From positions 62,001 to 126,000 of the forward strand of contig NZ_PVNB01000001.1 of NCBI RefSeq assembly GCF_003001995.1: a DNA stretch of 64,000 nt. The letters are read 5' to 3'. A program made the translations under genes and the position numbers. The DNA comes from Orenia metallireducens. GTDB taxonomy: Bacteria; Bacillota; Halanaerobiia; Halobacteroidales; Halobacteroidaceae. Below are positions 7,309 to 57,311 of this stretch, piece after piece (within the stretch, counting starts at the first letter, position 1; each line of letters begins with the position of its first letter). The notes under the pieces were generated by a model. It searched no databases. It was not told the origin of the DNA and saw only the letters and a list, made by a program, of their open reading frames with translations.

Positions 7309-7697
7309 AGAGATATTGCAACACTTTCGTGTGAGTTTATAGTGTACAGTGGTTTACACGAAGAGTCTTGTCTTCTAGACTCGTAGGGACGGTTGACAGT
7401 TAGTTAAGGTCTTTAAAGGCGAAAAGAATTATTGTTTAAACAGAGCAAAAATTGAGCTAGAATTTAGAGTTTAATTAAATTTTAAATAAAGAATATAATT
7501 AATATTAATAAGTAGTACTTTGATTGCATAGTGAGTTTCAATTCTTTTCTAGACTTTTTGCTTACTTTTAGAGCAATGTCGCCCTGAGAAGTGTTCTTCT
7601 CCGAAGAAGTACTTTTGGGGTGCAAAAGTAAGGCACCCTTAGGCGCAACCTAAGGAATTTGTCTACTTTTTAAAAGTAAAGTGTCGCAATATACCCA
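7309..7697. mobile_element. Inverted-end element copy 2 (L to R, core A)
   Basis: L end AGAGATATTGCAACAC at 7309-7324 and R end as GTGTCGCAATATACCC at 7681-7696. The 389-bp interior is core A, shared with copies 3 and 8. Shared landmarks are TAAGGTCTTTAAA near 7403, AGCAAAAATTGA near 7444 and the small palindrome CTTAGGCGCAACCTAAG near 7638. Extra nested hairpins are present near 7365 (CACGAAGAGT) and 7588 (AAGTGTTCTTCTCCGAAGAAG). It fills the bioB to esterase gap, so the biotin transcript would cross it. No coding sequence. Confidence 0.7.
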
Positions 7698-7730
7698 TAA
7701 AACACCAAATTTAATTCTAAAATTTAATAA

Positions 7731-15830: not shown

Positions 15831-16877
15831 TTAAAGACCTTTAATTTGCTTAATCTCTTCTTGAGAGTAACCCAATTCCTTTAATTCTGCTTTGAATTCA
15901 GCTAAATCTCTAATATAAGATTTAATCAATTTGCACTCTCCTACAAGCTCATATTCACCAAGGGTTGCTGGTAATAAAAGGGTTTCTCCTGCCTTTAGTT
16001 CCATCTCTCCACCTTCATAAGAAAGCTTTGCCTTTCCTTCTAATCCCATCAATACATAAAAACGCTCATGATTAGTATCAGAACTATACTTTTCAGCAAT
16101 ATCCAAAGTTTCTGTAGTAAAGTAAGGGCAGGCTACCAGAATAGTTCTAACATAACCTTCTTCTTTTATCTCTAAACCAACTACCTTCTCTTCAGGCTTT
16201 GTACCAAATTTAATTACATCTAAAGCAGCTTCAATATGTAATTCACGAGGCTTACCATCTTTCCCCATCCGGTTCCAATCATAAACACGATAAGTAGTAT
16301 CTGAGTTCTGCTGAATCTCTGCAATCAAAATTCCCTTATGAGTAGTATGAACCATTCCAGTTGGAATATAAATCACATCTCCAGCCTCCACGTTAACTTC
16401 TATTAAATTCTCTTCTAATCTTCCCTCTTTAATTGAAGAGACAAACTCTTCTTTATCTACCTCAGGCTTAACGCCATAGACCAACTTAGCATCTTCTTGG
16501 GCATCAATCACATACCACATCTCTGTTTTCCCTAGCTCTCCATTTTCATGTTCAAAAGCATACTCATCATCAGGATGCACCTGTACTGATAGTTTATCAT
16601 TGGCATCTAAGATTTTGATAAGCAAAGGAAACTTTTTATAATAATCTTCTTTAGCTTCTGTACCTAATATTTTTTCTCCTTCTTGCTTAATAGCTTCCAT
16701 TAAACTCATTCCTGCTAAGTTACCATTACTAATTATACTTGTACCATTCTCATGGGCTGCTAGCTCCCAACTCTCTCCAATTGATCCTTTAGGTAACTGC
16801 TTAGAGAATTTCTCTTCTAAGGCTCTACCTCCCCAGATCTTCTCCTTATAAATAGGTCCAAACTTTAATGGATACAT
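15831..16877 (-). CDS. manA: Mannose-6-phosphate isomerase, copy 1
   Basis: Zinc enzyme interconverting mannose-6-phosphate and fructose-6-phosphate in the cytoplasm. Type I motifs: GESWELAAHENG, VQVHPDDEYAFEHENGELG (Gln/His ligands), TEMWYVIDA (Glu ligand), VIYIPTGMVHTTHKG (His ligand) and IQQNSDTTYRVYDWNR. 348 aa. It closes the PTS operon, 110 nt after the second EIIC gene. A close paralogue of equal length lies at 24708-25754; this copy carries GMVHTTHKG where the other has the more usual GTVHAIEEG. The shared leader (AAAGGATGATAAAATA) shows the duplication included the RBS. Confidence 0.95.
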   Translation of the reverse strand: MYPLKFGPIYKEKIWGGRALEEKFSKQLPKGSIGESWELAAHENGTSIISNGNLAGMSLMEAIKQEGEKILGTEAKEDYYKKFPLLIKILDANDKLSVQVHPDDEYAFEHENGELGKTEMWYVIDAQEDAKLVYGVKPEVDKEEFVSSIKEGRLEENLIEVNVEAGDVIYIPTGMVHTTHKGILIAEIQQNSDTTYRVYDWNRMGKDGKPRELHIEAALDVIKFGTKPEEKVVGLEIKEEGYVRTILVACPYFTTETLDIAEKYSSDTNHERFYVLMGLEGKAKLSYEGGEMELKAGETLLLPATLGEYELVGECKLIKSYIRDLAEFKAELKELGYSQEEIKQIKGL

Positions 16878-22424: not shown

Positions 22425-22508
22425 ATAATACCTTCCACTTTAATACGGAAACTCTTTACAAATAACTCCCTCAATTCTATAGGTATCTAGATTCAAAATG
22501 AAATATTA

Positions 22509-22852
22509 GTGGTATATTGAACACTTTTTACTTTTAAAAAGTAGACAAAATCTTAGGTTCCGCCTAAGGGCTGGTTACGTTTTTCCTTGATGAGAAAGTA
22601 ACCAAACCTACGAGTTTTAAAGAACAAAAACTCTTCGTGATGAATCCAATCAAGAAAAAAATTCAACTCACTCTGCAACCAAATTGCTTATCGATATCAT
22701 TAACTATATTCTTTAATTAGATTTCAGCTAATCTCTAAAGTTTTTATTTAATTTTTGCTTCGCTCAAACAGAAATTTTTTTCACTTTTAAAAACCTTAAC
22801 TATCAACCGCATACTGTAAACTGTACACTAAAGTAAAAGTATCACATTCTCT
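22509..22852. mobile_element. Inverted-end element copy 3 (R to L, core A)
   Basis: Degenerate R end (GTGGTATATTGAACAC, 22509-22524) and L end (complement of AGAGAATGTGATAC, 22839-22852). The interior is core A in reverse orientation, with CTTAGGTTCCGCCTAAG near 22551 next to the R end and TTTTTGCTTCGCTCAAAC near 22755. A hairpin module ACGAGT...ACTCTTCGT lies near 22602-22640. 344 bp, upstream of the PTS operon promoter and downstream of the hexomutase terminator. No coding sequence. Confidence 0.65.
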
Positions 22853-24707: not shown

Positions 24708-25754
24708 TTAAAGACCTTTAATCTGCTTAATCTCTTCTTGAGAGTAACCTAACTCCTCTAACTCTTTTTTCAATTCAGCTAAATCTCTAATATAAGATTT
24801 AATCAACTTACACTCTCCTACAAGCTCATATTCACCAAGGGCTGCTGGTAATAATAAGGTTTCTCCTGCTTTTAGTTCCAACTCTCCACCCTCGTAAGAA
24901 AGCTTTGCCTTACCTTCTAATCCCATCAATACATAAAAACGCTCATTGTTAGTATCAGCACTATACTTCTCACTTATCTCCAGAGTTTCTGTAGTAAAGT
25001 AAGGGCAGGCTACTAAAATAGTTCTGGTATAACCATCCTCTTTTATCTCTAAGCCAACTACCTTCTCTTCGGCTTGTGCGCCAAATTCAATTACATCTAA
25101 GGCAGACTCAATATGTAAATCACGAGGCTTCCCATCTTGCCCCATTCGATTCCAGTCATAAACACGATAAGTAGTATCTGAGTTTTGCTGAATCTCAGCA
25201 ATTAAGATACCTTCTTCAATGGCATGGACAGTTCCTGATGGCATATAAAGAACATCTCCAGCCTCTACATTTATCTCAATTAAGTTCTCTTCTAATCTTC
25301 CCTCTTTAATAGAAGCAGCAAACTCATCCTTATCTACTTCAGGCTTAACCCCATAGACCAATTTAGCATCTTCTTGAGCATCGATCACATACCACATCTC
25401 TGTTTTACCTAACTCTCCATTTTCATGTTCAAAAGCATACTCATCATCTGGATGCACCTGTACTGATAGCTTATCATTGGCATCTAGGATTTTGATAAGT
25501 AATGGGAATTTTTCATAATAATCCTCTTTAGCTTCAGCCCCTAGAATCTTCTCTCTCTCTTCTCTGATTGCTACCATTAAGCTCTTTCCTGCTAATTTAC
25601 CATTACTAATTACACTTGTACCATTCTCATGGGCTGCTATCTCCCAACTCTCTCCGATTGTTCCTTTAGGTAACTGCTTAGAGAATTTCTCTTCTAAGGC
25701 TCTTCCTCCCCAGATCTTCTCCTTATAAATAGGTTCAAACTTTAATGGATACAT
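24708..25754 (-). CDS. manA: Mannose-6-phosphate isomerase, copy 2
   Basis: 348-aa zinc isomerase, nearly identical by eye to the product of 15831-16877. Shared motifs are VQVHPDDEYAFEHENGELG, TEMWYVIDA and IQQNSDTTYRVYDWNR. This copy has the canonical metal-His segment YMPSGTVHAIEEG. It lies 49 nt before the hexomutase and 24 nt after the ROK kinase, giving the order mutase/isomerase/kinase that channels hexose phosphates to glycolysis. The identical RBS region with copy 1 points to a recent duplication or gene conversion. Confidence 0.95.
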   Translation of the reverse strand: MYPLKFEPIYKEKIWGGRALEEKFSKQLPKGTIGESWEIAAHENGTSVISNGKLAGKSLMVAIREEREKILGAEAKEDYYEKFPLLIKILDANDKLSVQVHPDDEYAFEHENGELGKTEMWYVIDAQEDAKLVYGVKPEVDKDEFAASIKEGRLEENLIEINVEAGDVLYMPSGTVHAIEEGILIAEIQQNSDTTYRVYDWNRMGQDGKPRDLHIESALDVIEFGAQAEEKVVGLEIKEDGYTRTILVACPYFTTETLEISEKYSADTNNERFYVLMGLEGKAKLSYEGGELELKAGETLLLPAALGEYELVGECKLIKSYIRDLAELKKELEELGYSQEEIKQIKGL

Positions 25755-32664: not shown

Positions 32665-32785
32665 AGAGAGATAATGGGACACTTTGTTCTTTGGTGGTTG
32701 AGTAGTTAGGGGGTAGATAGTTGGGAAAAACCTAACCATCCAACCAACTACCCACCTAATACCAAAAATGTCGCAATACCCCCTA
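32665..32785. mobile_element. Inverted-end element copy 4 (L to R, palindromic core)
   Basis: L end AGAGATAATGGGACACTTT (32667-32685) and R end as TGTCGCAATACCCCCTA (32769-32785). The core is a quasi-palindrome: TTGGTGGTTGAGTAGTTAGG (from 32691) against CCAACTACCCACCTAATACC (near 32744-32763). The R end coincides with the stop codon of the GH2 remnant (32783-32785). 121 bp. Confidence 0.65.
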
Positions 32786-33055
32786 TCTATAACTCTCCCA
32801 TAAAGACCTTACCCTTAACTGCTCTTTTAAATCTTCTAGGCTAATATCTTGATAAATATCTTCTTTTTTAATCTCCAATACCTTAGTTTCATTTGCAGAC
32901 AGATCAAAATAATTGTCTGTATAAAAGGGATCTTCTATTATCCCAGCTACTAATAAATCATTTAAGACAGAACCTGGTACTTCTGCTCTAATCCACTCCT
33001 GATCAGCTAACTTTCTCATCTTCCAACTTCCATTTAAACTCAAACTTATCATCAT
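32783..33055 (-). pseudogene. GH2 beta-mannosidase remnant (N- and C-terminal ends fused)
   Basis: The first 45 residues (SLNGSWKMR, AEVPGSVLNDLLVAGIIEDPFY) are the canonical start of GH2 beta-mannosidase. Residues from about 46 onward (TDNYFDLSANETKVLEIKK ... SLWESYR) match the C-terminal immunoglobulin-like domain and end of the same family. The catalytic barrel, some 700 residues, is missing. The joint falls at TDN, a tripeptide found at both places in the family (PFYTDNE near the start, FSDNYFD near the end). An in-frame deletion between these is the simplest origin. The reading frame remains open with a good GGAGGTG site, but no enzyme activity is possible. Confidence 0.8.
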
Positions 33056-36513: not shown

Positions 36514-38709
36514 TTACTTATATACCTTTTGATACAATTTAATATTATCTAGATAAACTGGTCCTGCATATTCTAAATTTTCACCTACTATCCCTATTCT
36601 CATATGCTCTTTTCCACTCATATCATATTTCTTTTCACATTTAATATATAGATACTCATTACCATCAATAGTTACAGTCTCTGCATCTGCTACAGTCACA
36701 TCAAAATCACCCATTCCAATAGTAGACCACCCTGGTTCAACTACAGCATATGGTTTGATTTTACCTTTAGCAGATAAACCTGCTTTAGGTAGATAAATTT
36801 CAAAAGAAACTTTATTATAATCTGATAACCCCTGTAACGACCAATGAACTACTCTTGTTTCATCCCAGCTACCACCTGACCAATTAACATCTACTTTTAA
36901 ACTTCCTCCATTGAAATTAGAATGTACAACCTTTGAGATTAAAGTATCCTTATCTGCTATCCAACCTTCTAAGTCATTAGAAAAGTCAATATCTTCTCCC
37001 AATACATACATAGCAGTTTTATTTCTAACTGTTACTTCAACAGATTTCTCTAAAAGAGTACCGCCAGCTAACTTAGCCTCTACTATTCCAGTTACAGCTT
37101 CCCCTTCTGCTTCTTTGCTTGTATCCCAAGTACCAACATAAATTCCTTCTCCTTGAGCTACTAGCTCAACCTCTTGCTTAGGAGTCTTATAAGTAACTTT
37201 AGAAACCTCTATACCTCGAGCTAATACAGTTGCTTTAACCTCTACTTTTCCTTTAACATCTGTTACTGCTTTTGGACTGTTCAAATATAAAGCAGGCTTT
37301 CTATTATCTATCCCTGTATTAAATAAAGTAGCATAATCAGCTAGTAAATTAGCAGTCTTGCTCCCTTCAACAATACGGAATCCATCATAATCTGGATATA
37401 AGCCATCCTCATCAGCACCACTTCCAGTATCGATACCACTTAAAATCCAGAACACACTCCCATCTATACCATTTTCATAAATAGCTTGATTCCATAAGTC
37501 ATAAGCTAAGTCTCTATTGGCATCACTTTCAGCATTGATTCCATACTCTTCTATTATAGCTGGCTTATTAATCTGATTAGCAAATTCAGCATGGGTCTTA
37601 ATCCACTTCAATCCAGCGTTAATCTGATCTGACCAATCATCTCCCCAATGATCTGGATATAAATGGACTGTACCATAGTCAATATTAGAAAGGCTAGTTA
37701 ATCGCTTCCAATCAACACCTTCCCAGCCACCATAACCATATATCTGACCAATCTCGCCAGTCTCTTCGTTAATATTTTGATATTCCTTACCTTCAAGGTG
37801 AATAAAGTGACCTTCATCTCCTACTGCCAGCAGATGATTGCTATCTATACTCTTAACATAAGCACTCATCTCTTCTGCCCAATTGACCAAAGTATCTCCA
37901 GATTTATCAGAGGCAGCTCTTGGTTCATTAGCCAACTCCCAAGAGAAGATTGTAGGATCTTCTTTATAAGTCAATCCTGTGTAAGTGTTCTTTCTATTTA
38001 AGAGATATTTGACATAATCTTTATAGGCTTTTTTAATCTCTTCATTGCTATAGAAATCATCATGCTCATCAGCACTAGCTACCCATTTGACATATTGATT
38101 CATCCCACCAAAATCATTCCAATTATTAACAAAAGGTATAAGTAATTTAATACCTTCTTCTCCTGCCTTCTTAATTGCATAATCAAGCTTTTTAAATCCA
38201 CTCTCATCATAAACACCAAGCTCTGGTTGCATTACATTCCCATCATGAGCTTCTCCATCTAAAAAGCCCCAAATTCTGATTACCTCAACTCCCATTGCCT
38301 TGGCATCTTCAATAACATCATCAACCATCTCTTTATCTTTATAGTGGAAGTAATAATTATTAGTTCCTACAAATTTGAACTCTTGATCCCCCAACATAAA
38401 TTTATCACCTTCAGCCCGCACAAACTCAGCTTTCTCAAACATAGCAGTGATATTCATATCACCAGTTGCCACTACTTCTACTGGGTTTTGAGTTCCTGTT
38501 AAACTTCCCCGCCACTCTTTAAACTTCCATCCAGCAGCTGGAATAGCTTTTATCATTGCAGTATCATTTTGCTGATTTACCTCTCCATCAACAGTTATCT
38601 TACCTTGACCGATTTGATTGGTTTTTACAGATACATTTCTACATCCTACTAAGGTGAAGGTTAAAATTAATGTAAATAAGACTAGTATTATTTTTTTATT
38701 TTTTAGCAT
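36514..38709 (-). CDS. Cell-surface GH5 mannanase lipoprotein with CBM27-like module
   Basis: 731 aa. Lipobox FTLVGC puts the lipidated Cys at 23. Next is a bacterial-repeat domain (GKITVDGEVNQ...WKFKEWRGSL, about 30-95). The GH5 domain (about 100-460) has the acid/base Glu in FSWELANEPRA and the nucleophile Glu in PAIIEEYGIN. An Ig-like domain (about 475-560) and a C-terminal sandwich (YVLGEDIDFSNDLEGWIADK ... GPVYLDNIKLY) resembling the mannan-binding CBM27 follow. ATG at 38709 is set by AGGAGGG and the signal peptide. It would cut mannan at the cell surface, complementing the soluble GH5_8 enzyme. Confidence 0.9.
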   Translation of the reverse strand: MLKNKKIILVLFTLILTFTLVGCRNVSVKTNQIGQGKITVDGEVNQQNDTAMIKAIPAAGWKFKEWRGSLTGTQNPVEVVATGDMNITAMFEKAEFVRAEGDKFMLGDQEFKFVGTNNYYFHYKDKEMVDDVIEDAKAMGVEVIRIWGFLDGEAHDGNVMQPELGVYDESGFKKLDYAIKKAGEEGIKLLIPFVNNWNDFGGMNQYVKWVASADEHDDFYSNEEIKKAYKDYVKYLLNRKNTYTGLTYKEDPTIFSWELANEPRAASDKSGDTLVNWAEEMSAYVKSIDSNHLLAVGDEGHFIHLEGKEYQNINEETGEIGQIYGYGGWEGVDWKRLTSLSNIDYGTVHLYPDHWGDDWSDQINAGLKWIKTHAEFANQINKPAIIEEYGINAESDANRDLAYDLWNQAIYENGIDGSVFWILSGIDTGSGADEDGLYPDYDGFRIVEGSKTANLLADYATLFNTGIDNRKPALYLNSPKAVTDVKGKVEVKATVLARGIEVSKVTYKTPKQEVELVAQGEGIYVGTWDTSKEAEGEAVTGIVEAKLAGGTLLEKSVEVTVRNKTAMYVLGEDIDFSNDLEGWIADKDTLISKVVHSNFNGGSLKVDVNWSGGSWDETRVVHWSLQGLSDYNKVSFEIYLPKAGLSAKGKIKPYAVVEPGWSTIGMGDFDVTVADAETVTIDGNEYLYIKCEKKYDMSGKEHMRIGIVGENLEYAGPVYLDNIKLYQKVYK

Positions 38710-38734
38710 AGTTACCCTCCTATGTGCTGAATAA

Positions 38735-39003
38735 TAATTAAGGTTCTTCAACGAGTTTTGTGAAAATACCATATTTAAATTATTTTAAACATTTCTTTGC
38801 AACGAATCTCTCGAATTAACGCGAATTTAGATCAAGAACTTTTAAATCTTTAATTTAGTCTTTTAATCTCTAATTCGTGGGATTCGCGTTAATTTGTTGC
38901 TACTAATCTTAGTTTTTTAAATATATTTTAAACTTTAATTTCTATTTTTTTCTTGTAAATAAGATTATCTTTAATCACAAAGTTTGTTGTTGAACCATAA
39001 TTA
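38735..39003. mobile_element. Family D inverted-repeat element, copy 2
   Basis: Ends TAATTAAGGTTCTTCAACGA (38735) and the complement of TAATTATGGTTCAACAACAA (ending 39003), each followed inward by (G)TTTTGTGA or CTTTGTGAT. A second nested inverted pair, GCAACGAATCTCTCGAATTA (38811) against ATTCGTGGGATTCGCGTTAA (38874), lies inside, with GCAAC/GTTGC bases. 269 bp, in the spacer between the porin terminator and the mannanase lipoprotein gene, so the mannanase promoter must lie in or beyond it. Confidence 0.65.
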
Positions 39004-39055: not shown

Positions 39056-40771
39056 TTAGAATTTAACTGTATATTTAACTTCATAGTAATCTTGAGTCTT
39101 TCCAGAGTAGACCTCAGTACTATCACCATCATTATCTTTGTCATTTTCATCAAAAGTAGTCTTACCATAAGAGAATGCTATCTGGCCAGTATTTAATTGT
39201 TTAGTCAACTTAGTATAGAAGTTTGTAGTAAAATCTCCATCACTTAATAACTCTTTATGATCTGTTGCATAGTTACCAGCATAAATATCTAAGCTATTAG
39301 TAGAGAGTTCTGTATATAAGCTCAATCCTTCAAAAATTGTATAATCTGTCTTAACCATAACGGTCTTAGTACCTCTAAATTCATTTGCTTCCCAATCTAA
39401 TTCACCGTCTGTGTGAACTATAAAGTCTGTATTTAATCTAGTAGTTGGCTTATAATTTAAAGCAATTTGACACTTATAGTCTTCCATTCTATCATAGTCA
39501 TCATCATCACTAGCTGGCTGTTTAAATAGCTTACCTGAGAAGTATGATTTTAGACCTGCTTTCTGGTTAAATTTCCAATCATAATAAACCTTACCATACC
39601 AGCTGATAAAATTAATCTCATCATCATTATCTCGACTATAACCATACCACTGGTCTGTATAAAATCCAGTCTTCATATCATTTGCTAAATTAACATCTGC
39701 CTTAAGATAACGCTTACCATGCTTTTTAAAATTAGCACTGGAATCACCAATATATTTTTGCCATAAGTCTTTACCTTACTCTTTCCAGAAAGCTTCAACA
39801 TAAACATTACCAAAGGACTTACCAGCCTTAGCAGCCCAACCAATTGCATCTCCATCAGCTTCACTACCAGCTAACTCTCCAGCCACATTGACACCTTTAA
39901 ATAATCCTTGGGATATATTATGATCTGCTGTTACATATGCTGTAGCATCATTGTCTATTAAATCCATCTTATCTGACTCAAACTTGTCATCTCCAGCTTC
40001 ACCTAACAGACCTGCTGTCATTGTAGTGGAATCTCCTAAAGCTCTTTTAGCTTTTAACATAAATAATTGTGATTCTTCTTGAATTCCATTCAAATCCCAT
40101 GCTTCTGTATTCTCAGTTGCATCTCTATTTACTTTAGTTAAGATACTAGCATAGACTTCAGTTGATCCAACTGTTTTAGAGAAATCAATACCCGCTGTTT
40201 GATTTTCTATCTCTTGGTCTCCTTCATAATCATCTTTATCACCTGGTCCCCAGCCATTAACAGAATACCAATCTCTTTCGTTACGAACTTTATCTACTAC
40301 TGCATAATCTTTAGCTGAGAATAAGCCTAACTGGTCTCCAGAATCCCTTCCATTACTCCTATAAAATGCTCTAAAATCTCCACCAGAAAGCTTACCAGTT
40401 AATTCAGTCTTGCCTAAACCAAAGACTGCACTTCCTAAATCTCTATCAGTTCCAATCCTTTCAATATCACCATAATCAAAGGTTGCTAAACTTGAATCTT
40501 TATCAGCAAGCTTAAGCTCTGTGGCTAATTGCCAGTTATCATTGAAATCATAATCCATATTCAATCTAATATCAGCTTCAGTATCAAGCTCTTGAGCATC
40601 ATCTTCATCATCTGAACTAACAATTACCTCTACACTACCACTCATCTTTAGTTTAGAAGTAGAAGATTTATCCTCCACCTGCTTCTTTTCTGTTTCGGCA
40701 GCAAATGCTACACCTGTTGCTAAAGTCAAGACTAACATGAATAATACCAATGAAAAAACTTTTTTCTTCAT
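39056..40771 (-). pseudogene. Outer-membrane porin-like protein interrupted by an in-frame TAA
   Basis: Signal peptide MKKKVFSLVLFMLVLTLATG with cleavage after AFA. It is followed by Asp/Gly/Tyr-rich alternating beta-strand sequence typical of barrel proteins, ending YYEVKYTVKF with the C-terminal Phe of outer-membrane beta-signals. The frame stops at TAA (39776-39778, codon 332) and continues in the same frame for another 239 codons with the same composition (GKDLWQKYIGD..., YTDQWYGYSRDNDDEI). One substitution (CAA or GAA to TAA) would explain it. Without suppression the product is a 331-aa piece lacking the end of the barrel. Position next to the mannan genes suggests oligosaccharide uptake. 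Confidence 0.8.
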
Positions 40772-40844
40772 AAATATTCTCCTCCTTGTTATGTTTTTAT
40801 ATTGATGATTAACTCATCATAGATGCTTTATTGCATCCTCAAAG

Positions 40845-41264: not shown

Positions 41265-42476
41265 TTAGTCAATCAAATCAGCAATAGACCCATCTTCTCC
41301 AAGCAATTCTGAATTCTTAGCAATCAATTCATTCCGTTGAGCTACACAAGCATGGGAACGTAATGGATCTTTAGGAGTATTAGTCACATAATCAACTAGT
41401 TTATCAACTGTAGTAGTCGCTACATGGCATCTCATATCACTAGAGGCATAATAGATAAATACTTCTCCATTATCTTGAGCTATCACTCCATTAGTAAAGA
41501 CAACATTTCCTACATCCCCTACAAACTCATCACCCTTAGGAGCAATCAAGTGTCCACTTGGGCTGTGAGTTACTTGATAAGGTTTCTCTAAATCGGTCAT
41601 AAAAGCATAAATTACATATCTTAAGCCTGCAGCAGTATTTCTAACACCATGGGCAATATGCAACCACCCTTTATCGGTCTTAATAGGTGCTGCTCCTTGA
41701 CCATTTTTAACCTCTTTGATTGTATGATAGATTCTCTCATCAACTATGATCTCTTCCTCAATCACAGCATTCTCAATATCTTCAGCCAAGCCCCAACCTA
41801 TTCCTCCGCCACTTCCAGCAGAGATAAACCCATCTTGTGGTCGAGTATAGAAAGCATACTTGCCATCAACAAATTCTGGATGTAATACTACATTTCTCTG
41901 TTGAGCAGAAGGGCTCTTTAAATCAGGCAGCCTCTCCCAATCTTTTAAGTTCTTTGTTCTAGCAATTCCAGCTTGAGCTACTGCACTTGAAGTATCCCCT
42001 TTAGGAGCATTAGGATCCTTTCTTTCTGTACAGAATAATCCATAAATCCAGCCATCTTCATGCTTAACCAATCTCATATCATAGACATTAATATCTGGGT
42101 CTTCAGTCTCAGGCATTAGGATTGGATAATCCCAGAATTCAAAACCATCGATCCCATTATCACTCTCTGCTACTGCAAAGAAGGATTTTCTATCATTACC
42201 TTCAACTCTAACTACCAAATAATACTTCCCATCTAATTCGATTGCTCCTGGATTAAATGTAGCATTAATTCCTAATCTCTCCATCAAATAAGGATTAGTC
42301 TTATAATTTAAATCATACTTCCAATGTAATGGAGCATGCTCATTTGTTACTACTGGATATTTATATCTATCATAGATTCCATTCCCTAACTCTTCTTTCT
42401 CATTAGGTCTACTGATTAGCTGTTGATAATTCTTATAAAGAGCCTTTAATCTATTATTGAACTCTGCTTTTGTCAT
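41265..42476 (-). CDS. GH130 4-O-beta-mannosyl-glucose phosphorylase
   Basis: 403-aa cytoplasmic enzyme that phosphorolyses Man-beta-1,4-Glc to mannose-1-phosphate and glucose. The stretch [20 protein letters not shown], the donor Asp in [39 protein letters not shown] and [20 protein letters not shown] match the GH130_1 group typified by Bacteroides and Ruminococcus mannosylglucose phosphorylases. It starts 1 nt after the stop of the epimerase gene that makes its substrate from mannobiose, so the two are translationally coupled. Its products go to the hexomutase and glucokinase at 23-27 kb. Confidence 0.94.
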
Positions 42477-42477
42477 C

Positions 42478-43692
42478 TTAGTTCATCTCCCTTTTTATCT
42501 TTTCTAATCTATTAACAATCTCAAAACAAGCTCTACCATTATGGTATGGCCCCTTCCAAGAATTAACTTTAGAGATCTGATTATTTACTATTCCCTCTTT
42601 AGATACCATCCAGAACCACTCATCATACTCTTGATCTATAATCCTCTCTTCAATAAAGCTCCAAATATTCTTAGCAACTTCTAAATACTTATCTTCGTCT
42701 GTCAATTGATAAGCATTTAAAAACCCTACTACCGCCTCAGCTTGTGGCCACCAGTGTTTGTCACTGTCTATAATTCCTGTCGGGTCACCTTCATATAAGA
42801 CTGCCCAATCTTCATCAAGACCTTCTTCATAAGTAACCTCAGCCATCTTTACAGCAATCTCTGCTACTTTCTCTATAAGCTCTTGATCTCCCAATACTTC
42901 AGCAGCTTCATATAATAACCAGCTTCCTTCAATGTCATGGCCATAAGAGAATAGATCAGACTTAGAAGTCCATTTTTCATCAAAGAATAGTATAAAATGA
43001 TAAGTTTGAGAATCAATAATATATTCAATTGTTACTTCTATAAGTTCTTTTAATTGCTCTTCTAATCTTTTATCCTTCCAAACTCTAAATAGATTGGTAT
43101 ATGCCTCTAAGATATGAAGATGGGTATTCATAGATTTCTTTTCATTCATATCCTTCTCACTTAACCTCAAGTCTTCTAATTCATTCCACTCTCTAGAGCA
43201 GGCTTCAATATATCCTTTATTTTCACTATCATAACTATACCTTTCAATTAATTCAAACAATTCAATAGCCTGTTCTAAACTTTCCTCTTTTCCTGTTGCC
43301 AGGTAATACTCTGAGAAAGCATAGATAGAAAAAGCTTGACCATAGATCTGCTTTCTATCATTTACTACATTCCCTTGAGAATCTAACATCCAATACATTC
43401 CAGCATACTCTTTATCCCAAAAATTTTGTAATAAATAATCATAAGCTCTGTCAGCTATCTCTAAATATCTTTGATCTTCTAATTCTCTATAAGCTAAGGA
43501 AAATGCCCATAGAATCCTAGAATTTAGAATTAGACCCTTTTCTGCTTCCTTATTAATAAGCAAATCATTTGTTATCTCTCCATAAAAGCCTTGATTCTCT
43601 GTATCTATAGCATTATCTATCCAAAAATTAAAGATATTTTTAGTCTCTTGCTCTACCTGTTTTTGAAATTGACCCTTTAACAAAGCAGTCAT
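42478..43692 (-). CDS. Cellobiose 2-epimerase (AGE family)
   Basis: 404-aa cytoplasmic (alpha/alpha)6-barrel enzyme that epimerises the reducing end of beta-1,4-disaccharides, here mannobiose to mannosylglucose. [48 protein letters not shown], the His in [31 protein letters not shown] and the His in [13 protein letters not shown] are family landmarks, including both general acid/base His. Coupled to the GH130_1 gene with a 1-nt gap. Upstream spacer is 330 nt and contains element copy 5. Confidence 0.94.
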
Positions 43693-44022: not shown

Positions 44023-45018
44023 TTAAAATACTTCAGAATTAGCTTTAATGTACTCAACCAACTCATTTACTTCACAATAAGCTACAGCGGTGTAAGTATC
44101 AGCTGCACCATAATAAATAGCGATTCTTCCTGTATCAGCATCATGCAAGGTTGCACATGGGAAAGCTACATTAGGTACAAAGCCTGTAGTTTCATATTCC
44201 TTTTCAGGAGTTAGTAAGTAGTCACGAGTTCTATAAAGAACCTTACTTGGATCATCGATATCCAAAATAGTTGCCCCCATACTATAGACATAGCCATTAC
44301 AAGTTCCAGATACACCATGGTAGAACATTAACCAGCCCTCTGTAGTTTCAATTGGAGCAGGTCCACCACCAATCTTAGTACCTTGCCACCAGCCAGATCC
44401 ACCATTAGACATAACATGACGATGTTTACCCCAATAAGTCATATCCTTACTTTGGCTTAAGAAGATATCTCCAAAAGGAGTATGCCCTGTATCACTTGGA
44501 CGATTCAACATTACAAAATGATCATTGATCTTTCTTGGGAATAATACTCCATTTCTATTAAATGGAACAAAGGCATCTTCTAATCTTGTAAAGGTCTTGA
44601 AGTCTTTAGTCATTCCTACACCAATTGTTGGTCCATGAAATTCACTACACCATAGGATATAATAAGTATCCTCAACTTTAACTACACGAGGATCATAAGC
44701 ATAACCTGGTTCAGCCTCATTACCATCTGCATCTACCCAATTAATAGTTTCATCTTCAAATTCCCAGTTTAAGGCGTCCTTGCTTCTGCCAAAGTGTAAA
44801 TGTGCTCTTCCATTCTTATGGTCCATTCTAAAGACACCTACAAATTCTCCCTCAAAAGGAACTACTGCACTATTATAAACTCTTGCCGCAGATGGAGTCG
44901 GATTCCAATCAGTAATTGGATTAGCTGAATGACGCCAAACAACTTGGTCACAACCTTCTGGTTTCTCTTCCCATGGCATATTTTTTAAACTTTCTCCTAT
45001 AATTTTAACTTTGCTCAT
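44023..45018 (-). CDS. GH130 beta-1,4-mannooligosaccharide phosphorylase
   Basis: 331-aa cytoplasmic phosphorylase of the GH130_2 type (RaMP2-like), removing mannose-1-phosphate from the non-reducing end of mannooligosaccharides. Features: HSANPITDWNPTPSAARVYN, GVFRMDHKNGRAHLHFGRS, the donor Asp in GYAYDPRVVKVEDTYYILW, GHTPFGDIFLSQS, GTKIGGGPAPIETTEGW and the final FPCATLHDADTGRIAIYYG. GGAGGCGAC precedes the ATG. Together with the GH130_1 enzyme and epimerase it covers both long oligomers and the final disaccharide. First intact gene after the lipoprotein remnant. Confidence 0.92.
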   Translation of the reverse strand: MSKVKIIGESLKNMPWEEKPEGCDQVVWRHSANPITDWNPTPSAARVYNSAVVPFEGEFVGVFRMDHKNGRAHLHFGRSKDALNWEFEDETINWVDADGNEAEPGYAYDPRVVKVEDTYYILWCSEFHGPTIGVGMTKDFKTFTRLEDAFVPFNRNGVLFPRKINDHFVMLNRPSDTGHTPFGDIFLSQSKDMTYWGKHRHVMSNGGSGWWQGTKIGGGPAPIETTEGWLMFYHGVSGTCNGYVYSMGATILDIDDPSKVLYRTRDYLLTPEKEYETTGFVPNVAFPCATLHDADTGRIAIYYGAADTYTAVAYCEVNELVEYIKANSEVF

Positions 45019-50902: not shown

Positions 50903-51645
50903 CCTTTACCTACCTCCCTTTTAATATTTTTGTTTAATTCATACTTAATTCCACTAATATTTTGATTTGAAATAATCACTCCTTAGTAGCTGCTAATTTG
51001 TTAACCTTATCGGCAGCATGTTTAGTTGCTAATCTGCATCTCTTCTATTTGAAGCTAATTTTAGCTATAATCTATCCTCTACTTTTGAAAGATAAATTTT
51101 AATTGAAAAATTAAAATTCCTGTATCTAAAATACTATCTGTTCTATCAAAACAAATAAATTTAATACAGGAATTATATCCTTATATTCTTATATCCTTAT
51201 ATACTCTGCATATAATCTGCTGAAATTTTATTAAAAATATAAAATTTAATCTTAGTTTACGCTAAATAATAATACCAATTCTAGAATTCTTTTTAAGAGC
51301 TAATATAGGTGGTGAATTTAAAATGAAACTTAATGGTTATATTACGACACTTTAAGTTTTAGCTACGGGTTTTAACCCGTAGTGTAACATGTCATCATCA
51401 CCACAGGTTGAAACCTGTGGCTAGTAAATTTATCATTATAAAAAGTGTCGCATTATCTCTATATAGCATTATGGCTAAATTTTATTCTAGATTCACGAAC
51501 CTATAGGTCGATGAACTCTTAGACTTATATTAGTTATTATTTAGCGATAAACTTCTTATAAGTTAATTATACTTTTTTCTAAGTTAAGATTAAATGTATA
51601 AGCTTTAGGTTTCTTTGTAACTAGCTTAGATACCTTATCATGAAC
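50903..51645. other. Largest gene-free spacer, with element copy 6
   Basis: 743 nt between the sensor kinase and the permeases. 51304-51505 is element copy 6. 51170-51240 has degenerate TTATATCCTTATA repeats. 50990-51070 can be read as a 20-residue open stretch on the minus strand but has no support. No promoter could be picked out with confidence. Confidence 0.5.
51304..51505. mobile_element. Inverted-end element copy 6 (R to L, family C core)
   Basis: Extended R end from TATAGGTGGTGAATTTAAAA (51304) to GGTTATATTACGACAC (51335-51350). Extended L end, read inward on the minus strand from TATAGGTTCGTGAATCTAGA (ending 51505), runs to AGAGATAATGCGACAC. The extended L end is almost identical to that of copy 8. 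The core (51361-51424) is the family C double hairpin also seen alone at 36415. 202 bp, no coding sequence. Confidence 0.75.
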
Positions 51646-55672: not shown

Positions 55673-55885
55673 TATAGATGTGTGAATTGAAAATTGAACT
55701 TTAGAGAGATATTACGACACTTTTACAAATAATAAATAATAGTGAATAAATAAAAACTCATCTTTCTAGAAGGTTTAGTGGTTTTAATCTTAACTATTAT
55801 TTATACTTTATTAATTATTCACTGGTTTAAAAAGTGTCGCAATATACCCATATAGTCCTATATTTAACTTATAGATTTATAAATC
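55673..55885. mobile_element. Inverted-end element copy 7 (L to R, palindromic core)
   Basis: L end AGAGATATTACGACACTTTT (55705-55724) and R end as AAAGTGTCGCAATATACCCA (55831-55850). The outer flanks (TATAGATGTGTGAATTGA from 55673) resemble the extended ends of copies 6 and 8. The core pairs AATAATAGTGAATAAAT (from about 55731) with ATAATTAATAAAGTATAAATAATAG-like sequence ending near 55822, imperfectly. Lies between the esterase and DUF624 genes. Confidence 0.65.
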
Positions 55886-56942: not shown

Positions 56943-57311
56943 TATAGGTTCGTGAATTTAGAATAAAATTTAACTATGACGCTATGGAGAGATATTGCGA
57001 CACTTTTAAACCCCAGTGTGTAGTTGATAGTTAAGGTCTTTAAAACCGAAGAAAATTTTTGTTTGAACGAAGCAAAAATTGAACTGGAATTTATGGTTTA
57101 ATTAAATTTTGAATAAAGAATATAATTAATGATAATAATTGATATTTTGATTGCGTAGTGAGTTTAATTTTCTTCTTGATTTTTTGGTTACTTTTTCATC
57201 AAGGAAAAACGTAACCCGCCCTTAGGCGGAACCTAATAATTTGTCTACTTTTTAAAAAGTAAAAGTGTCGCAATATCCCCATAAGTTTCATTTTGAATTC
57301 ACATACCTATA
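56943..57311. mobile_element. Inverted-end element copy 8 (L to R, core A; best preserved)
   Basis: Extended L end starts TATAGGTTCGTGAATTTAGA (56943) and reaches GAGAGATATTGCGACACTTT (56988-57007). The extended R end, read inward on the minus strand, starts TATAGGTATGTGAATTCAAA (ending 57311) and reaches GGGGATATTGCGACACTTTT. The TIRs are therefore about 60 bp. Core A landmarks: TTAAGGTCTTTAAAACC (57040), ACGAAGCAAAAATTGAAC (57063), GGTTACTTTTT/AAAAACGTAACC hairpin (57185-57215), CCTTAGGCGGAACCTAA (57219). 369 bp, no coding sequence; between the reductase and esterase genes. Confidence 0.78.

Follow-up and report, generated by a model that had tools for sequence, protein, structure and literature searches.

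The question raised by this locus is whether a porin-like gene, found with an in-frame stop codon among genes for mannan use, has recently been lost, is still translated through its stop, is really two genes, or is an intact gene that was misread. The window, to which all unlabelled positions refer, is the whole 64,000-nucleotide stretch of Orenia metallireducens DNA that was analysed.

The interrupted frame

Translation of the minus strand from 40771 to 39056 gives 331 residues, a TAA, a further 239 residues ending in YTVKF, and a final TAA (Table 1). The porin-like frame has 571 codons, and stops were found solely at codons 332 and 572, which bears out the first-pass annotation of a TAA at codon 332 splitting an otherwise open frame, and of a second half with Phe at its end. 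The stop itself is real and single in the sequence as given. An open frame over the 239 codons after it is beyond chance, as none of 5000 base shuffles remained open (mean of 21 stops), and codon usage favours the same frame on both sides of the TAA. The sequence around the stop is AAAGAGTAAGGTAAAG, which is not a long homopolymer. The two halves had also been described as sharing their composition; this was true for Asp but not for Tyr (2.9% vs 9.2%) or Ala (9.2% vs 4.2%).

Table 1. Positions of the interrupted gene, its parts and neighbouring genes in the window
Feature	Position	Strand	Evidence
Interrupted outer-membrane beta-barrel (porin-like) gene, 571 codons and terminal TAA	39056..40771	-	Translation, codon usage, open frame, two-sided homology
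In-frame TAA, codon 332	39776..39778	-	Translation; sense residue in the aligned column of 5/5 relatives
Upstream piece, 331 residues, with signal peptide and first half of barrel	39779..40771	-	ORF, translation
Downstream piece, 239 residues, with C-terminal Phe and no start before codon 366	39059..39775	-	Translation, start scan
Signal peptide MKKKVFSLVLFMLVLTLATGVAFAA	40697..40771	-	Translation; aligns with signal peptide of intact paralogue
Putative first barrel strand SKLKMSGSVEV	40622..40654	-	Sequence comparison; strand in low-confidence model
Shine-Dalgarno AGGAGGAG of the porin gene	40779..40786	-	Sequence upstream of the gene's ATG
First in-frame ATG after the stop (codon 366), without Shine-Dalgarno	39674..39676	-	Start scan
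GH130 mannosyl phosphorylase, upstream neighbour	41265..42476	-	Pfam PF04041
GlcNAc 2-epimerase family protein, by context probably mannobiose or mannose epimerase	42478..43692	-	Pfam PF07221
Second GH130 phosphorylase, with a near-identical copy beside the intact paralogue	44023..45018	-	Pfam, DNA comparison
Secreted mannanase-like lipoprotein with CBM27	36514..38772	-	Pfam PF09212

Relatives across the stop site

DNA and protein searches identified an intact paralogue of 864 aa on the same contig (G000:C1:132540-135134, also L009:2041-4635), approximately 6.5 kb beyond the window end and 30 kb from the interrupted gene. The description of the latter as the only porin of the mannan locus therefore holds inside the window only. 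More distant relatives required profile searches: a two-sequence profile detected G338, a contig-edge copy in another class, and a three-sequence profile detected G434, G435 and G436, which belong to the same other class as G338. With the single protein as query, no relative outside its own genome was found in the order (13 genomes), the genome contigs, plasmids or viral contigs. There was also no family member in 58 other genomes of the same class, two congeners included, and a second strain of the species did not turn up either.

Relatives carrying two separate genes would have contradicted the presence of one split gene, and this was checked; all five were single open frames across the site, and the single-gene reading stands. 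The residue aligned to the stop is Tyr in the paralogue and Ala, Ala, Ala and Val in the four outgroups, and a Leu-Trp or Leu-Phe pair closely follows this column in all relatives but one. As the frame is continuous, with a sense residue in each of the five, the TAA sits inside a continuous conserved protein.

A recent nonsense mutation or an error

If the gene had been decaying for long, this should be visible after the stop. Before the stop, the identity to the four outgroups was 23-26% for the window protein and 20-27% for the paralogue; after it, the values were 21-28% and 21-25%, respectively. Of the residues that are invariant in the relatives, the window protein keeps 10 of 15 upstream of the stop and 11 of 15 downstream, so there is no excess of change past the TAA. 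Since its identity to the outgroups equals that of the paralogue on both sides, the lesion is either young or absent from the organism.

As in a nonsense pseudogene, a single stop lies in a frame that is homologous on both sides to uninterrupted genes. We consider it reasonably likely that this is one outer-membrane barrel channel gene, probably for manno-oligosaccharides, that was inactivated by a single recent nonsense mutation. The main rival, second to a nonsense allele, is that the gene is intact and the TAA arose as an error of sequencing or assembly. The lack of decay is predicted equally by a fresh mutation and by an assembly or base-calling error, and the equally conserved halves, the clean remainder of the frame and the draft state of the genome (95 contigs) all agree with an error. 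However, the absence of a long homopolymer at the site speaks against it, and approximately 124 kb of the contig contained no clear second case resembling the interrupted porin, which indicates that errors of this kind are not frequent in the assembly. We regard an error as a serious but rather unlikely explanation. The same check returned one more same-frame pair, with shorter pieces of 115 and 156 codons (L066:3612-4430). Among the three options originally offered for the stop, which were loss, read-through and error, the data favour recent loss or assembly error and go against read-through.

If the nonsense mutation is real, translation would end after 331 residues. The BAM machinery recognises a C-terminal signal in its substrates, and the truncated product, lacking half of the strands and the C-terminal Phe signal, would be expected to be degraded, while the downstream part, lacking a signal peptide, would not be usefully translated. 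Such a loss could be tolerated because the intact paralogue with its mannan-binding-type domains and, probably, general porins would still admit sugars.

Is the protein a porin?

The claim that the gene encodes a porin-like barrel was supported by homology, the signal peptide, the Phe at the C-terminus and a structure model of low confidence. The signal peptide was recognised by visual inspection and from its alignment with that of the paralogue, and together with the aromatic C-terminal residue it is what is expected of an outer-membrane barrel. A model made from four sequences gave approximately 20 strands with low confidence (pTM 0.38), in which the TAA position coincides with the end of a strand about halfway through the barrel; a single-sequence model was useless (pLDDT 31.5).

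The protein could instead be another secreted beta-rich protein, which is compatible with any reading of the stop. The window protein had no match among the Pfam, NCBIfam and PDB sequence families, and the weakness of the four-sequence model also leaves room for this. On the other hand, the best Foldseek matches of that model were mostly outer-membrane barrels (OmpG, TodX), though with low TM-scores; the terminal Phe is present in the window protein and all five relatives (6/6); and on the C-terminal side the amphipathic strands exceed those in 499 of 500 shuffles, whereas the N-terminal side does not stand out. We consider a protein other than a porin improbable.

Read-through and translation as two proteins

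Preservation of the downstream frame could also be explained if the TAA were read through and a small amount of full-length porin were made. The base following the TAA is G and not U, the most efficient base at the +4 position (PMC5289835), and termination at TAA-G may be slightly below ideal. However, no suppressor tRNA for UAA was present among the 78 tRNA genes located and typed (anticodon UUA in 0/78), although a few may be missing from a draft genome; UAA is the normal stop here, ending 23 of 40 window genes; and the RNA 3' of the stop is no more stably folded than its shuffled versions (z -0.23), which led us to reject an RNA element promoting read-through. Taken together, these three observations make programmed read-through unlikely. 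Programmed read-through would also be expected to conserve the stop and its context, and none of the five relatives has the stop, each having a sense residue in its place. In E. coli, replacing UGA with UAA lowers read-through, according to work as cited in PMC5289835. Overall, we regard read-through as very unlikely.

The first-pass annotation gave no ribosome-binding site for the downstream half, and this was confirmed, as no start with a Shine-Dalgarno lies near the TAA; the first in-frame start is 33 codons past it, whereas the gene's own ATG is preceded by a strong Shine-Dalgarno. Translation restart at the TAA was rejected in view of these 33 codons without a start. It is hardly credible that each half works as a protein of its own or that two chains assemble into a split barrel: although each piece is a long open frame of at least 200 residues, the second has neither a nearby start, nor a Shine-Dalgarno at the first one, nor a signal peptide, and the TAA site falls in a region that is continuous in all relatives. 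At three more places in the window a gene follows another in the same frame; these were considered as extra lesions and rejected, since each downstream gene there has a start and a Shine-Dalgarno of its own within approximately a dozen codons.

The mannan-use cluster

In addition to the neighbours in Table 1, the gene is accompanied by a GH5 enzyme, phosphomannose isomerases and a phosphomannomutase-type enzyme, which makes this a mannan-use cluster. From this genomic context, the putative role of the interrupted porin is probably to admit manno-oligosaccharides released by secreted mannanases. A version of the locus without the porin was sought in the order, but its other 12 genomes lack even the neighbouring GH130 gene. 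The intact paralogue has a cluster of its own, with a full-length GH130 copy and a lipoprotein carrying a mannanase galactose-binding domain. The two GH130 copies, one per porin cluster (44023-45018 and L023:9796-10788), share 94.7% DNA identity over the 701 bases compared, a similarity that points to recent duplication or exchange.

On the minus strand at 32783-33055 lies what remains of a GH2 beta-mannosidase, in which the N-terminal domain runs directly into the C-terminal Ig-like domain and the catalytic middle is missing; gene loss has therefore occurred elsewhere in the mannan cluster, which favours the nonsense reading of the porin gene. Two mannose-6-phosphate isomerase genes, approximately 8 kb apart (15831-16877 and 24708-25754), are 88.5% identical in DNA. 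Elsewhere in the window there is a T-box leader (RF00230; 1607-1844, minus strand) upstream of the gene at 633-1511, and a scattered repeat, at most approximately 300 bases long and apparently non-coding, with no Rfam match, whose copies on both strands are 68-88% identical (7390-7700, 22478-22816, 51304-51505, 55673-55726 and 57007-57311).

A proposed porin family with built-in glycan-binding domains

Residues 44-181 and 267-369 of the paralogue each form a mannanase-type galactose-binding domain (PF21253), and the window protein carries neither domain. Between them, residues 217-227 of the paralogue (SKFNVSGNVEV) match the putative first strand of the window protein, and the corresponding segments are ARVRLSGKAYV in G435 and SKVKISGKTEL in G436; this correspondence was made by eye, as the automatic alignments split the segment. 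In three proteins, the paralogue and two relatives, the strand-1 segment is directly followed by an inserted galactose-binding-like domain. With a periplasmic N-terminus, the stretch after strand 1 would be the first outer loop and a domain placed there would be displayed at the surface, so the second PF21253 domain of the paralogue is probably at the cell surface. Porin-like barrels with PF21253, having one domain just past the putative strand 1, were observed at L009:2041-4635, L033:4748-7549 and L034:3686-6481, and the relatives outside this genome adjoin fucosidase-like and other glycosidase-like genes.

We tentatively propose that diderm Firmicutes could have an undescribed family of porins with built-in mannan-binding-type domains, one in the periplasm ahead of the barrel and the other in the first loop at the surface, and that the window gene could be the bare-barrel sibling of these. 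A single chain would then both capture the polysaccharide and take up its fragments; the bare copy would just have been lost and the domain-bearing copy kept. The barrel family is small and patchy in outer-membrane Firmicutes, with glycan-binding domains fused to some members, and the barrel itself is unmatched in Pfam. As sugar uptake across the outer membrane of such Firmicutes has been little studied beyond OmpM, the intact members offer test objects. The lesion itself, if not an error, is an ordinary recent gene loss, and the domain-bearing porins are of more interest.

Comparison with known systems

Porins such as OprD and OmpK35/36 have loss-of-function nonsense alleles, which are tolerated as other routes remain. 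The window gene resembles these in having a premature stop in a substrate channel, but it belongs to a different barrel family, and its host is environmental, with no selection known.

The gene had also been taken as documenting an outer membrane in this Firmicute. An outer membrane is supported by four Omp85 matches in the genome, and in the controls such matches were found in outer-membrane organisms and not in Gram-positive or archaeal ones. This is not new for such Firmicutes, as outer membranes are already known in diderm Firmicutes and have been published for Negativicutes, Halanaerobiales and Limnochordia (PMC5007114, PMC10628300). The OmpM-type SLH porins (PMC10628300, PMC5007114) are likewise outer-membrane channels of diderm Firmicutes with the barrel at the C-terminal end. 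Unlike them, the window protein has no SLH domain, Pfam scans giving no SLH match in it or in its relatives, and it has no sequence match to solved porins.

A further comparison is with the paralogue in its own genome, which shares with the window gene the signal peptide, the strand-1 segment, a barrel region with 25-33% identity, the terminal Phe and an adjoining GH130 gene. It differs in being intact, with 864 aa, and in carrying PF21253 both before and after the first strand segment.
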